Assembly: GCA_019455105.1 (NCBI GenBank)
Contig: JACFMZ010000012.1
Span: 1 to 38,106 of the forward strand
From: Bacteroidota bacterium
GTDB taxonomy: Bacteria; Bacteroidota; Ignavibacteria; UBA10030; UBA8401
Reading direction: 5' to 3'
DNA: 38,106 nucleotides
A model generated the notes under the pieces. It saw only the letters and a program-made list of their open reading frames with translations, ran no database searches and was not told the DNA's origin. The position numbers and the translations under genes were made by a program. This document shows positions 30,806 to 36,878 of the stretch, piece after piece (within the stretch, counting starts at the first letter, position 1; every line of letters begins with the position of its first letter).

Positions 30806-31876
30806 TTATGGAGCACTCATTCCTGTAACGTAATTGTAATTTCTAATATTACTGGTAAGAAAGACAAAAGGAGAATAAGCAGATTTTTTTGCAGACAAGA
30901 AGCTGTAAAATAAATTATGCGCGCCGAAGGAAAGCGATTTTGCATCGTATCCCAAAACGCGGAGATACGCCGTAATAAATGCGCTTTCCTGACCCGAATA
31001 GCTATAGATAACAATCTTTTGGCGGTTCGGAAGGAGCTGCAGATTTTCTGTGCTTTTAAAATCTTTTCCCGGTAAAAAAGAAACAGAGCGGGGAAAATGT
31101 CCCACGGAAACAGGATCGAAAGAATTTTGAGCGTGCAGAGAGCGGTCGCCGTAACAGACAATATAAAAATCTGCAGCGGCTTCGCCGTTGAACATCATTG
31201 TATCCGGCGGATAAATTTTTACAAAGGCGCCGCCGTCTGCAAATCCTGCGTGTATTAAATCGGCAATTCTCATTTTTATTTTCGTCTTCATCTCCGCGCC
31301 GGAATTCGGCAGAGCAATTTCCGGCAGAGGAAACAATTGTTCGCTGCTGTAATTAGAAAAGGTGAAATTTCTTGTTACCTGAATATTGTCGGCGATATTA
31401 TCGGTCCAACTGTGCGAGAAAAAAGCATTCCACTGCGACATTCCGAACAATAAAGAATACGCATTTGGAATTCCGTACAGTCTCAGCAGTGAGGTAAAGT
31501 AGGAAGAAGCCTGCCCGTCCGAACTGATGAGAACAATTTTTGCATAGCTGCCGCTGTTTACGGAATTCAAAAAAGTGAGAAGCGAATCGCTGCGAAGATG
31601 AACGGCGCCGGAAATATGTCCGTCGGCATATTCCTGAACAGTGCGCAGATCGAGAAGTAAATATGCGCCGAGATTGTTCGCGACTTCATCAACATCTACA
31701 ACGGAAGGAAGAGCAGCAGAATTTCCGTAATCTCCGTCTTGCTCCAAAGCGTGCAGCAACAGCGCATTATCGGATAAAGAAATTTCCGCAACCGGCGAAA
31801 CATCATCCTTTAAGCAGCCGGAAATGCCGAGGCAAAGAAAAAAGAGAAGAAAATATTTTTTAAAAAAGAATGTCAT
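30806..31876 (-). CDS. Lipoprotein with two rhodanese-like domains, both lacking the catalytic cysteine
   Basis: A 356-residue lipoprotein counted from ATG 31876 (MTFFFKKYFLL), with lipobox ISGC and lipid Cys at 21. Domain 1 (about 58-155) has LLLDLRTVQEYADGHISGAVHL, and domain 2 (about 205-330) has GHFPRSVSFL. These are rhodanese substrate-domain features. The active-site loops read LISSDGQAS (Ser118 where Cys is expected) and IYSYSGQES (Ser292 where Cys is expected). Both are therefore Cys-to-Ser, so sulfur transfer is unlikely and a binding or structural role is inferred. It is the last gene of the TonB receptor operon, nine bases after the DUF4249-like gene. Expected location: periplasmic or outer leaflet membrane anchor. 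Confidence 0.82.
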   Translation of the reverse strand: MTFFFKKYFLLFFLCLGISGCLKDDVSPVAEISLSDNALLLHALEQDGDYGNSAALPSVVDVDEVANNLGAYLLLDLRTVQEYADGHISGAVHLRSDSLLTFLNSVNSGSYAKIVLISSDGQASSYFTSLLRLYGIPNAYSLLFGMSQWNAFFSHSWTDNIADNIQVTRNFTFSNYSSEQLFPLPEIALPNSGAEMKTKIKMRIADLIHAGFADGGAFVKIYPPDTMMFNGEAAADFYIVCYGDRSLHAQNSFDPVSVGHFPRSVSFLPGKDFKSTENLQLLPNRQKIVIYSYSGQESAFITAYLRVLGYDAKSLSFGAHNLFYSFLSAKKSAYSPFVFLTSNIRNYNYVTGMSAP

Positions 31877-31885
31877 CAAAAATTT

Positions 31886-32716
31886 TTATTGTGATTGCAA
31901 CAATGCCCCTTCACTTACTCCAATAAAGAGACCGATAACATGTTCCCCCTGCACATTCCATGCAATCAGGTCGCCTCCCTGCACAAAGGCATCAGAAACG
32001 GGCTGATTATTATTTTTTGTATTGAAATATTTTAAATATGCTTCATCAAAAGCATACACTTTTATGCATCGGTAATCTTTATAATACGATGCGTTGTATT
32101 TTTCCGGAAGATCTTTTGTTGCCACATCAATGGAAGCAGCGGAAAGAGTTTCCGGCGCGTTGACGATCGATAAAAAACTTTCTCCTTTTTCAAGAATGTT
32201 TTTGCTGCTCGGATTCATCATTGTCCAAACGGCGCCGTACGCTTCTCCCGGATTTGTTTTTACGGTCGCCAGCAAATGTCCGTTTGCATAGCGGACATTA
32301 ACGGCCTCCGGAATGCGGGGAATTTTTGTTACGGCGTAGATTGGGCTGTTTTCCACGGAAGCAAACAGTTCAACCGTTTCACCGGGAAGCAGAATAAGCG
32401 TGCCGAGCGGTTTATACATTCCTTCGGCGGAATAATGAAGCGGAACGATTTTTATTCCGTTAATTTTTAAATACGCCGCGGCATCTTTAATAAATGCTTT
32501 GGCGGTGTCGAACGGTTCATTGATAGGGAGCGTTTTGGAAATAAAAACTCCCTGAATATCGGAATACGGTTTCAGTTCCGCTCTTACGACAATATTTTTC
32601 TCGTACAGTAAATCGGGATTTACCGCTTCAATATTATCGCAGCCGAAGACCGCAAGCAATACCGTCAGAAAGAGTGTAGGAAAAAATTTATTCATCGCCG
32701 TGAAAAAAAACCTCAT
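31886..32716 (-). CDS. DUF4249-like lipoprotein, partner of the TonB receptor
   Basis: A 276-residue lipoprotein with lipobox AVFGC (Cys about 26). The mature part begins with NPDLLYEKNIVVRAELKPYS and then a beta-rich region with IVVRAEL, INGIKIVPLHYSAEGMY and VTKIPRIPEAV. This is the layout of the Bacteroidota DUF4249 family, which sits next to SusC-like TonB receptors. That match is from memory of the family pattern and is moderate. The ATG at 32716 lies seven bases after the receptor stop; a second ATG at 32695 (MNKFFPTLFL) gives a more typical lipoprotein signal and may be the true start. The rhodanese-like lipoprotein follows nine bases downstream. Confidence 0.65.
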   Translation of the reverse strand: MRFFFTAMNKFFPTLFLTVLLAVFGCDNIEAVNPDLLYEKNIVVRAELKPYSDIQGVFISKTLPINEPFDTAKAFIKDAAAYLKINGIKIVPLHYSAEGMYKPLGTLILLPGETVELFASVENSPIYAVTKIPRIPEAVNVRYANGHLLATVKTNPGEAYGAVWTMMNPSSKNILEKGESFLSIVNAPETLSAASIDVATKDLPEKYNASYYKDYRCIKVYAFDEAYLKYFNTKNNNQPVSDAFVQGGDLIAWNVQGEHVIGLFIGVSEGALLQSQ

Positions 32717-32723
32717 TCATTTT

Positions 32724-35069
32724 TTAAAAAGTAATTTTAATTCCTGCCGAAGGAATAAACGGAAACAGAGAAATTTCTTTCAACCGGGTTGTTAACGAAG
32801 CGGAGCTGTTGTTTTTTACTTCATCAAGATTGTTGGTTGAATAAATCGCAAAAGGATTTTTCCGGTTATAGACATTATACAACGATATGTAGGTTTCGCA
32901 GTTCAGCGCATAAGCAGCGAACTTATAGCTCACCGTAACATCAAGTTTATGGTACGCGGGAAGTTTAAAACTATTCCGCTCCGTGTAGTTGTATTGCAAA
33001 CTTCTCGAACTGTTCACATCAACCGGTTCAAACAGATACTGTCCGTTCGGCACCGTAAATCCCTGACCGCTGGCATACACCCAGCTAATTCCCGCATTCC
33101 AGTTTTTATTGAACTCGTACGCCAGCGTTACGGCAACATCGTTTCTTCGGTCGTAGCGAGGATAAAATATTTTCCCCGCATTCAATGCAGAAAATTTTTG
33201 TCTTGTCCATGATAATGTATAACCGACCCATCCCGTAATTTTTCCAGCGGTTTTATACATAAACCATTCTATGCCGTAGGCTTCTCCGTCTCCTTTGGTA
33301 AAAAGATTTTCAATCGGGTCGCCGAGCGCATACGGAGCGGAATTTTTAAATTCATAAAGATTGCTCATGTTCTTGTAATATCCTTCAAGCGAAAAAAGAT
33401 AATGGTCATCCGGCAGATTGTAATGTATTCCCAGCACATATTGCTGCGAGCGACTTGGTTCTATATTTTCGGAGGAAGGATACCATAGATCGGTCGGAAG
33501 CGAGATATCGTTTCGAATAATTAAATGTAAAAATTGATGCGCAACGGCGTACGCCGCAGTGAACGAGAGATTTTCATCGGCGGAAATTTCCGCCGACAAG
33601 CGGGGCTCGAGACTGAAATATTTTTTTGATTTAAAATAATATCCTCGCACGCCGATATTAGTTTTCAGCCAGCCGGTAAAGCGGCTTTCATTCTGCGCAT
33701 ACAAAGCAGTTTCCAGCGCCAGAATATCGGGAAGCGTTTCATACGTCTGCTTGAGAAGTGGATGATAAAAATTACTATAGATGAGCGAGTAATTATGAAC
33801 CATCATCTCGCTGCCGATTTTTAAGGTGTTGAATTCATTCCAATACAGTTCTGTTTTTAATTTCGCTGTTACATCTTTCAGTTTCGAAAGCGCGTAATAA
33901 TTATTTGCCGAACGGGAAGAGAGGCGGTCTTCCAACAGCGATTCCGATTCATAATCAATATAGCTCAGCGATGCCGTAATAATTGAAGACTGCGGATTGA
34001 TATGCTGCCAGGAAAAACTTGCGAAGGCATTCTTCCAGCCGATAAAATACTCTTTTTCTTGCGCCGCCGCCGGATTATAGAGATTATCTTTTCCGTACAA
34101 CCCGCTGAGCGAATACACATTCGATGCCGAAGGAGTTAACGTAATTTTTGTGCTGAGATTGTAATAATTATATCTGGGAATGACGCTGCTTTTTATGACG
34201 CTGTTTTCAAGAACATCGTAATACATTTTTTCGCCGGAAACCATATACGTGGCATGGTCGTTCAGCGGACCTTCAATCACCATTCCGGAATTTATTAAAC
34301 CGAGACTGACGGTTCCTTTTTCTTTTTCCTTTGTGCCGGGCCGAAGCATAATATCCAGCACGCTGGAAAGTCTTCCGCCGTACTCGGCAGGAAACGCTCC
34401 TTTAATCAGCCGGATATTTTTTACGGCATCGGTATTGAACACGCCGGAAAAATTTCCTAAATGAGTGGGGTTGTACATCATTACGCCGTCCACCAGCGTA
34501 AGATTTTGATCGGGCGAGCCGCCCCGCACATACAGCCCGCCGGAAATTTCGCTCGCCGTTTTAATTCCCGGCAGAGACTGCAGCACTTTAAACAAATCGG
34601 TTTTTGCCCCCATAGAAGGGAGCATTTTTATTAACTCCGGATTGATATCCAGAGAGCTTGTAAGAGGCTCGCCGAGACGGTTTCCTTCAATAAAAACTTC
34701 CTGCAGGTTAATATTTTCTGCCGGCAGTTTTACGGTTAATTGAATGTGTTCGTTATCGGATGAGATGCGGACGCTTTTTACAACGGCTGCATAGCCGATA
34801 TTTCGCACCACCACAACATACATTCCGGGCGGAAGTTTCGGAAAAATAAAAAATCCGAAATTATTTGTTGAAACTCCTCTCAACGGAGGCTTGCCGGTTT
34901 CAAGAGCTTCTTTGTATAATAAAATATTTGCACCGATAATCATTTCTCCGCTGGTGGAATCGGAAACAAAACCGGAGATATCGGAATGAAACGTCTGCGC
35001 TACCGCAGAAACAGAAAGAGCGGTAAAAAGAATACCGTAAAATATTTTTTGGAAAATGTCTGCGTTCAC
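32724..35069 (-). CDS. TonB-dependent outer-membrane receptor with N-terminal carboxypeptidase-regulatory-like domain
   Basis: A 781-residue protein that begins at GTG 35069; no ATG is available before residue 42 and the GTG gives a good signal peptide (IFYGILFTALSVSAVAQ). Residues about 30-110 form the regulatory-like domain (ISGFVSDSTSGEMIIGANIL). The plug follows (GGLYVRGGSPDQNLTLVDGV near 175-194, then AVKNIRLIKGAFPAEYGGRL). The rest is a large beta-barrel ending AGIKITF with a terminal Phe. No extended TonB box is evident. Receptors of this kind import bound nutrients with a lipoprotein partner. The next two genes are lipoproteins, so a three-gene surface system is inferred. A sigma70-like promoter is visible upstream. 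Confidence 0.9.
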   Translation of the reverse strand: MNADIFQKIFYGILFTALSVSAVAQTFHSDISGFVSDSTSGEMIIGANILLYKEALETGKPPLRGVSTNNFGFFIFPKLPPGMYVVVVRNIGYAAVVKSVRISSDNEHIQLTVKLPAENINLQEVFIEGNRLGEPLTSSLDINPELIKMLPSMGAKTDLFKVLQSLPGIKTASEISGGLYVRGGSPDQNLTLVDGVMMYNPTHLGNFSGVFNTDAVKNIRLIKGAFPAEYGGRLSSVLDIMLRPGTKEKEKGTVSLGLINSGMVIEGPLNDHATYMVSGEKMYYDVLENSVIKSSVIPRYNYYNLSTKITLTPSASNVYSLSGLYGKDNLYNPAAAQEKEYFIGWKNAFASFSWQHINPQSSIITASLSYIDYESESLLEDRLSSRSANNYYALSKLKDVTAKLKTELYWNEFNTLKIGSEMMVHNYSLIYSNFYHPLLKQTYETLPDILALETALYAQNESRFTGWLKTNIGVRGYYFKSKKYFSLEPRLSAEISADENLSFTAAYAVAHQFLHLIIRNDISLPTDLWYPSSENIEPSRSQQYVLGIHYNLPDDHYLFSLEGYYKNMSNLYEFKNSAPYALGDPIENLFTKGDGEAYGIEWFMYKTAGKITGWVGYTLSWTRQKFSALNAGKIFYPRYDRRNDVAVTLAYEFNKNWNAGISWVYASGQGFTVPNGQYLFEPVDVNSSRSLQYNYTERNSFKLPAYHKLDVTVSYKFAAYALNCETYISLYNVYNRKNPFAIYSTNNLDEVKNNSSASLTTRLKEISLFPFIPSAGIKITF

Positions 35070-35101: not shown

Positions 35102-35130
35102 ACTATATAACAATAATTTTTTTTATTCAA
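35102..35130 (-). promoter_or_regulatory. Putative sigma70-like promoter of the TonB receptor operon
   Basis: On the minus strand TTGAAT (35125-35130) and TATAGT (35102-35107) are separated by 17 bases, with an A-run in the spacer. The predicted start near 35095 leaves a leader of about 26 bases before the GTG at 35069. Confidence 0.45.
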
Positions 35131-35190: not shown

Positions 35191-35229
35191 CTAAAAAGAA
35201 AAGCCCCGTTACAGGGCTTTTCTTTTTAG
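35191..35229 (-). terminator. Rho-independent terminator after the SBBP gene
   Basis: A perfect 16-bp stem (35191-35206 with 35214-35229) has a 7-base loop, with CTAAAAAGAAAAGCCC as one arm. In the minus direction the second arm ends in T-rich sequence (GGGCTTTTCTTTTTAG). It begins 14 bases after the stop at 35244 and may act in both directions. Confidence 0.9.
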
Positions 35230-35243
35230 AGAAATATAAAAAA

Positions 35244-36878
35244 TTATTTTATCAGCATCATTCGCTTTATCTCTGAAAAATTTCCGGTACGAAGATGATA
35301 AAAATACACGCCGGAAGAGAGAGAAGATGCATTAAACATTACTTCGTACATTCCCGGTGTCTGTTCCGCGTTCACAAGCACAGCAATTTCCCTTCCGAGA
35401 AGATCAATTACTGTTAATGAGACCGCTGTTTTCCCGGCGTGTTCAATGCCGGCAAGATGATACCGGATTGTGGTTGCGGGATTAAACGGATTCGGATAAT
35501 TTTGCGAGAGAGAATATTCCGCCGGAATTACGGCATGAATCATTCGAACGGCTGTGCCTGTTTCGGAATATTTTATCACATACATATCTCCCTTGGTGTC
35601 GGCGGAAGTGCTGTAGCCGGCGACGTAGATTGCGCCGTCGTTTCCCAATTTTAAAACAGATGGTTCATCGTTTCCGTTTGCCGTACCGTTGAACGGCATT
35701 GTCCATGCCGTGTCCCCGTTTGTATCGTACTGTACGGTAAGAAAATTGTAATCGGTGCTCGGCGGACTGGAAATTCTTCCGACCGAAAAAATTTTTCCAT
35801 CAGCACCTACAGCCAGCGCTGAGATTTGATGATTAACATTGGTTGTTCCAATACGGCGGCTCCAAAGAGAATCGCCGCCGGCGCTGAATTTCATCAGCGT
35901 AAATTCATCGAAGCCGACATAGATATTATTATTTTTGTCAACAGCCATTGCTTTCGGCTTATGGTAGTCATAGAGTAAAACGGTTTTCCATTGCTGAATG
36001 CCTTCCGCATTGTATTTAATAATAACCGGCTGGGCATTTGGATATTGCGAATTTGAACCGGCAACATACACATTTTCATTTGCATCAACGGCAAGAACTT
36101 TTGCTTCTTCCGATACGCTGTTATTCGGACCCGCATAATAGGCATGCCATTGTTTTACGCCGTCACGGTTATATTTAAGCGTTACAAAATCCCAAAATGT
36201 TGTTTGATTATTGACGTGTCCGGTCAGATACACATTTCCCGAACCGGTAACCGCCATATCCTGCGCGTCGTTTGAAAAAGCGTACGTTGCATCGCCCGAC
36301 CAGCGTCTCACCCATTGTTCAACGCCGTCAGCAGTGTATTTAATTGTCGTAATATCCATTGCGTTATTTGCTCCCATGCTTAAACCGGTAACATAAACGT
36401 TTGCCGAATCATCCAGCCCGATTTTTTTCGGCATATCCCTGTTCGCTCCGGTTCCATCATAGCGTTTAACCCACAGAGAATCGCCGTTCGGGCTGTATTT
36501 GATAATAACGTAATCTTCTGTTCCAAACTCGCTGCCGTTCCGGCTTTCGCCGGTTACGTAAACATTTCCGTTTGTATCCACTGCTATAGCCCGGGCAATA
36601 TCGGTATTGTTTCCCGTTCCATTATATATCCGCACCCAGGCGGTATCACCGGATGGGGTATATTTGATGGTACAAAAATCGTTCCCCGATATTAATCCGT
36701 TGCCGTTGCTTCCTGCAACATAGACATTGCCCTCATCATCAATCGCCATTGCATTAATACCGTCGTGTAAATTTCCCGCGCCGTTAAACCTGGCAGACCA
36801 AACTTCTTTCACTTGAGCAGTTACTGTAAGTGTATAACAGAAAACTGCAGCTACTGCCACACCGAGACAGTGTTTCAT
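35244..36878 (-). CDS. Secreted SBBP-repeat beta-propeller protein with T9SS C-terminal domain
   Basis: A 544-residue protein with signal peptide (MKHCLGVAVAAVFCYTLTVTAQ). Seven to eight SBBP-type repeats follow, each with a core like AIAVDTNGNVYVTGESRNGS (for example near 91-110) and KYSPNGDSLWVKRYDGTG-type links. The last 88 residues are a sorting-type domain with SLSQNYPNPFNPATTI, LSSGVYFYHL and a final KRMMLIK. SBBP proteins are surface adhesive or structural proteins of unknown partner. AGGAGGG lies just upstream of ATG 36878, a very good ribosome binding site. A sigma70-like promoter (36930-36958) and a terminator bound the gene, so it is monocistronic. Confidence 0.9.
   Translation of the reverse strand: MKHCLGVAVAAVFCYTLTVTAQVKEVWSARFNGAGNLHDGINAMAIDDEGNVYVAGSNGNGLISGNDFCTIKYTPSGDTAWVRIYNGTGNNTDIARAIAVDTNGNVYVTGESRNGSEFGTEDYVIIKYSPNGDSLWVKRYDGTGANRDMPKKIGLDDSANVYVTGLSMGANNAMDITTIKYTADGVEQWVRRWSGDATYAFSNDAQDMAVTGSGNVYLTGHVNNQTTFWDFVTLKYNRDGVKQWHAYYAGPNNSVSEEAKVLAVDANENVYVAGSNSQYPNAQPVIIKYNAEGIQQWKTVLLYDYHKPKAMAVDKNNNIYVGFDEFTLMKFSAGGDSLWSRRIGTTNVNHQISALAVGADGKIFSVGRISSPPSTDYNFLTVQYDTNGDTAWTMPFNGTANGNDEPSVLKLGNDGAIYVAGYSTSADTKGDMYVIKYSETGTAVRMIHAVIPAEYSLSQNYPNPFNPATTIRYHLAGIEHAGKTAVSLTVIDLLGREIAVLVNAEQTPGMYEVMFNASSLSSGVYFYHLRTGNFSEIKRMMLIK

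Follow-up and report, generated by a model that had tools for sequence, protein, structure and literature searches.

In Bacteroides thetaiotaomicron, the TonB-dependent receptor (TBDT) BT2172 and the DUF4249 protein BT2173 are encoded in an operon that is conserved across dozens of genera (PMC11003636). Disrupting either gene has similar consequences (PMC11003636), which indicates that this core pair acts together. For the DUF4249 proteins that accompany TonB receptors we came across no recorded ligand, and the open-access papers searched contain no description of a third component accompanying a TBDT and a DUF4249 protein. Rhodanese-family lipoproteins are known from another setting: ExtH belongs to the outer-membrane electron-conduit cluster extHIJKL of Geobacter sulfurreducens, and full reduction of selenite and tellurite requires the porin ExtI of this cluster (PMC6148476, PMC5877670).

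We analyzed a 38,106-nt stretch of DNA from an Ignavibacteria genome (contig JACFMZ010000012.1; hereafter the window). Its minus strand carries, in order of transcription, genes for a TBDT (32724..35069), a DUF4249 lipoprotein (31886..32716) and a two-domain rhodanese lipoprotein (30806..31876). The first two show the layout of a TBDT-DUF4249 pair, with a plug-domain receptor and a DUF4249 gene adjoining on the same strand; the published BT2172/BT2173 case bears out the original prediction that such a pair is known and functionally open. The intergenic gaps are 7 bp (TBDT/DUF4249) and 9 bp (DUF4249/rhodanese) when the ATG at 31876 is taken as the rhodanese start, and the second gap would be 6 bp if translation began at the TTG at 31879, where the listed open reading frame starts. 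The predicted three-gene surface operon (a TonB receptor, a DUF4249-like protein and a dead rhodanese, spaced by seven and nine bases) was recovered on a single strand, with Pfam matches for all three proteins. We refer to this unit as the triad.

A strong, terminator-like hairpin (35193..35227, minus strand; RNA folding energy of -25.1 kcal/mol, z of -7.36) lies between the triad and the upstream co-directional gene at 35244-36878, and the triad therefore probably starts its own transcript. Beyond the hairpin, this upstream gene encodes a 544-aa protein with beta-propeller repeats and, at its C-terminus, a sorting domain for type IX secretion. It had also been proposed that the three genes share one promoter. 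This is plausible, but the only promoter-like match in the gap, a weak TTGAAT-17-TATAGT on the minus strand upstream of the receptor (35102..35130), belongs to a class of matches found at chance density (11 found for 10.5 expected). On the other side, the next gene lies 101 bp beyond the rhodanese gene and is mostly replaced in relatives by another gene, often on the opposite strand, which makes the rhodanese gene the last of the unit.

The receptor (781 aa, GTG start) carries a signal peptide, a CarboxypepD_reg-like domain (E = 1.6e-11) and a plug (PF07715, E = 1.3e-9), and its closest relative is 53% identical (locus L140, genome G566). A vitamin B12 receptor identity was rejected, the match scoring 18 bits against a cut-off of 600. 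The DUF4249 lipoprotein (276 aa, with a possible internal start at 32695) matches PF14054 (E = 5.6e-8; 33.1 bits against a cut-off of 28.5) and has its lipobox cysteine at Cys26. Its AlphaFold2 model (pLDDT 89.1) is all-beta apart from the signal peptide and short helices and forms two sandwich-like domains; compared with the PDB, it showed nothing beyond weak, generic FN3/Ig-like similarity. Sequence searches found no solved structure related to the receptor or to the DUF4249 protein, and no SusD Pfam match was obtained at E<=1.

The third protein (356 aa) matches PF00581 in two stretches (E = 8.1e-19) and carries a lipobox with Cys21, followed by LKDD. An active sulfurtransferase has a catalytic cysteine in its active-site loop; the window protein has serine at this position in both domains, Ser118 in domain 1 (codon 31523..31525, minus strand; loop SSDGQ) and Ser292 in domain 2 (codon 31001..31003, minus strand; loop SYSGQ), in agreement with its earlier description as dead. 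The AlphaFold2 model (pLDDT 83.8) has only rhodaneses among its top PDB matches (Foldseek), and single-domain rhodaneses superpose on it at about 2-3 A. Because this confident model resembles rhodaneses while both catalytic positions are serine, the protein has kept the rhodanese fold and lost the chemistry; we call it a pseudo-rhodanese. Close pairs of triad rhodaneses gave dN/dS values of 0.15 (G493/G577) and 0.13 (G051/G021; dS near saturation), which are low, yet looser than those of the operon partners. These values show a gene under purifying selection rather than one in decay.

We then searched the 391 genomes of the class using the DUF4249 proteins of known triads as seeds, which tests whether this subfamily ever occurs without the rhodanese. 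The subfamily was limited by a gap in the scores, with 22 matches down to E = 4.9e-65 and the next at 1.8e-53. Rhodanese genes were searched over the same genomes, their coordinates were compared with those of the DUF4249 matches and the new loci were read. All 22 subfamily members are followed immediately, on their own strand, by a rhodanese gene, against none of the 41 lower-scoring DUF4249 matches (63 matches in the class in total). The check set beforehand, whether the three genes stay together across relatives, thus had a clear answer: a third gene rarely found beside the other two would have spoken against the triad, and the outcome is strongly opposite. Since 41 of the 63 matches lack the rhodanese, the pseudo-rhodanese is not a general DUF4249 partner; in other DUF4249 pairs the third gene encodes something else, such as an OMP-like protein (G113) or an alpha/beta hydrolase (G160), or there is none.

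Triads span at least five families and their flanking genes are otherwise unrelated. In trees of the receptor, the DUF4249 protein and the rhodanese, triad members form one group each time (SH-aLRT 95, 99 and 99), meaning one side of a branch in these midpoint-rooted trees; many triad entries were found through the rhodanese, and the trees inform common origin, not frequency. This pattern fits a single origin of the triad in each of the three trees. The distribution is nevertheless patchy: among the sampled genomes, the window's is the only one of its family with a triad, and the nearest triad relative (JAKAGZ010000014.1; L140, G566:C102, family f23) has a rhodanese 47% identical to that of the window. 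It is conceivable that the rhodanese is a passenger, co-transcribed with the receptor and working independently of it. The DUF4249 genes that do without a rhodanese would agree with this, as would the operation of Cys-bearing relatives in other settings, but adjacency in every subfamily member, across families with unrelated flanks and with one origin in three trees, makes it very improbable.

The same family of two-domain rhodanese lipoproteins is also encoded directly 3' of a lipoprotein of about 455 aa with ten CXXCH motifs, i.e., a decaheme c-type cytochrome. These decaheme-rhodanese pairs occur in Ignavibacteria, Kapabacteria and Bacteroidales and may form an extracellular module for redox chemistry on sulfur or metals; the open-access papers searched describe no such pair in this phylum. 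The window's genome has one of its own: on contig C24, a decaheme cytochrome lipoprotein is followed by a Cys-bearing rhodanese lipoprotein (L092:13393-15797), and the decaheme-linked paralogue G000:C24:23395-24351 is 36% identical to the window rhodanese. In a third group, from Bacteroidales (L151, L169 and L135), the rhodanese has genes for sulfur transport (PF04143), a molybdopterin oxidoreductase or porin O/P in its vicinity, likely a cluster for sulfur-compound respiration. At another locus (L137:7820-8845, G458), a Cys-bearing rhodanese lipoprotein of the family precedes a protein of 1163 aa that contains 24 CXXCH motifs. Around the triads, no CXXCH-rich multiheme gene was found within three genes, and no porin family was detected among the scanned neighbors in the window.

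All 49 decaheme-linked proteins retain the cysteine in both domains, with loops CY[ST]GQ and mostly CYTGQTS. In contrast, domain 1 has serine in all 31 triad copies (30 full, 1 partial), and domain 2 has Ser, Asp or Glu in 29 of them, the cysteine being present only in two sister species (G615 and G545). Cysteine is the canonical state in rhodaneses, and its loss in the triad copies is the simpler reading. Recruitment to the receptor operon was thus accompanied by the loss of catalytic function in a gene that is under purifying selection. In the tree the decaheme-linked group is separate from the triad clade; the root is unfixed, and an origin of the triads inside the decaheme clade is not claimed. 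Mean identities across pairs of five genomes were 41% for the triad rhodanese, 38% for the DUF4249 protein and 47% for the receptor, against 58% for the Cys-bearing paralogues in those genomes; the triad proteins have thus diverged further than the paralogue.

We propose, with about even confidence, that the triad is a three-component TonB-dependent outer-membrane importer with the pseudo-rhodanese as a subunit for capture or gating, exposed at the cell surface. The receptor, with its barrel and plug, would import a ligand on TonB energy, the DUF4249 protein would be its obligate lipoprotein partner, and the pseudo-rhodanese would capture the ligand or gate the receptor. Import, ligand binding and the formation of a complex are what we infer from this arrangement, as is surface exposure. 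Capture or gating is our best reading of the third subunit, by analogy with other TonB-dependent systems in which surface lipoproteins take part. The surface-export signal of Bacteroidetes lipoproteins (LES), C-X-K-(D/E)2-X, was determined in Capnocytophaga (PMC5080379). The mature N-terminus of the window rhodanese, CLKDDV, fits this motif, which may not apply in the present class, and two adjacent acidic residues are found in about half of the triad copies (11 of 23). Against a three-component importer, DUF4249 alone suffices as a receptor partner in many genomes.

The active-site loops bear on what the third subunit might do. In domain 1 of the triad copies, serine and glycine are invariant and glutamine nearly so (13 of 14 in alignment A1). 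Because this S-x-x-G-Q substrate loop is kept with Ser in place of Cys, domain 1 may bind without forming a persulfide, and its near-invariance fits non-covalent binding. In domain 2 the catalytic position of the loop has varied freely (S, D, E or C), suggesting that ligand contact was lost there, and conserved positions specific to the triad clade have appeared, including L99, C241, S275 and Q280. Inactive rhodanese domains commonly act as protein-binding modules. These features would suit a structural or regulatory scaffold that binds no small ligand and either holds the receptor and the DUF4249 protein together or packs against another surface protein. However, the conservation of the domain 1 loop goes beyond what a pure scaffold would need, and we regard this explanation as unlikely. 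The non-catalytic Cys241, a single cysteine, is kept in 13 of 14 triad pseudo-rhodaneses (alignment A1); at this position the Cys-bearing relatives carry Asn.

Some genomes carry triad-type rhodanese genes in tandem: five in G161, where they follow one receptor/DUF4249 pair (L087:8543-14155), two in G011 and several in G661. Such copies behind one receptor fit diversified binding subunits. They would also be expected if the receptor and the DUF4249 protein exported or matured the rhodanese lipoprotein as cargo, since the rhodanese is the last and the multiplied part of the operon and has an export-type N-terminus. Yet the Cys-bearing relatives, lipoproteins with similar acidic N-termini, have no receptor or DUF4249 gene beside them and would thus reach their place unaided by the pair. 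Most receptor/DUF4249 pairs also lack such a cargo gene, and the paper describing the pair records no export role (PMC11003636). We therefore consider a surface-assembly or secretion unit improbable.

For the importer that we favor, the ancestry of the rhodanese family allows a guess at the ligand: a sulfur oxyanion, a thiol or a chalcogen-containing compound. The neighborhood gave no further clue. Around the triads we found no conserved flanking periplasmic or inner-membrane transporter or enzyme; a conserved flanking metabolic gene was rejected since the flanks vary between families, and a riboswitch or other Rfam element was rejected since the upstream regions of the window and five triad loci gave no matches. 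A bolder version of the proposal is that, on a single occasion, a TonB-dependent receptor acquired a rhodanese lipoprotein of the kind that elsewhere accompanies extracellular-type decaheme cytochromes, and that this protein now acts at the surface as a receptor, without catalysis, for a ligand containing sulfur or another chalcogen. The triad would then represent a class of uptake system not yet described, in which a pseudoenzyme is the binding subunit; we hold this version to be rather doubtful.

The triad is a real and conserved three-component variant of the known receptor pair, and apparently an undescribed one. DUF4249 proteins are widespread as partners of TonB receptors, and the subfamily in which a pseudo-rhodanese is obligatory offers a concrete handle on them. 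The pseudo-rhodanese provides a soluble domain with a loop suited to ligand screening, for which the Cys-bearing relative encoded in the same genome can serve as the control. It is also a clear-cut example of catalysis being lost in an enzyme family upon recruitment to a transporter operon.

Several described systems resemble parts of the triad. As in SusC/SusD systems, a TBDT is combined with accessory surface lipoproteins, but SusD is largely helical, whereas the window DUF4249 protein has no SusD domain match and is predicted to be all-beta. The decaheme-rhodanese pairs use the same two-domain lipoprotein family, but their rhodaneses keep both cysteines, form a separate tree group and are partnered with a cytochrome. 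ExtH offers a functional parallel, set side by side by description, as a rhodanese-family lipoprotein that acts alongside a beta-barrel protein in the outer membrane; its cluster, however, has a porin and a multiheme cytochrome with no TBDT or DUF4249 protein named, and the window rhodanese lacks both cysteines. Compared by gene layout, BT2172/BT2173 likewise has a TBDT gene beside a DUF4249 gene; the difference is that in the window's subfamily a pseudo-rhodanese gene always follows as the third.
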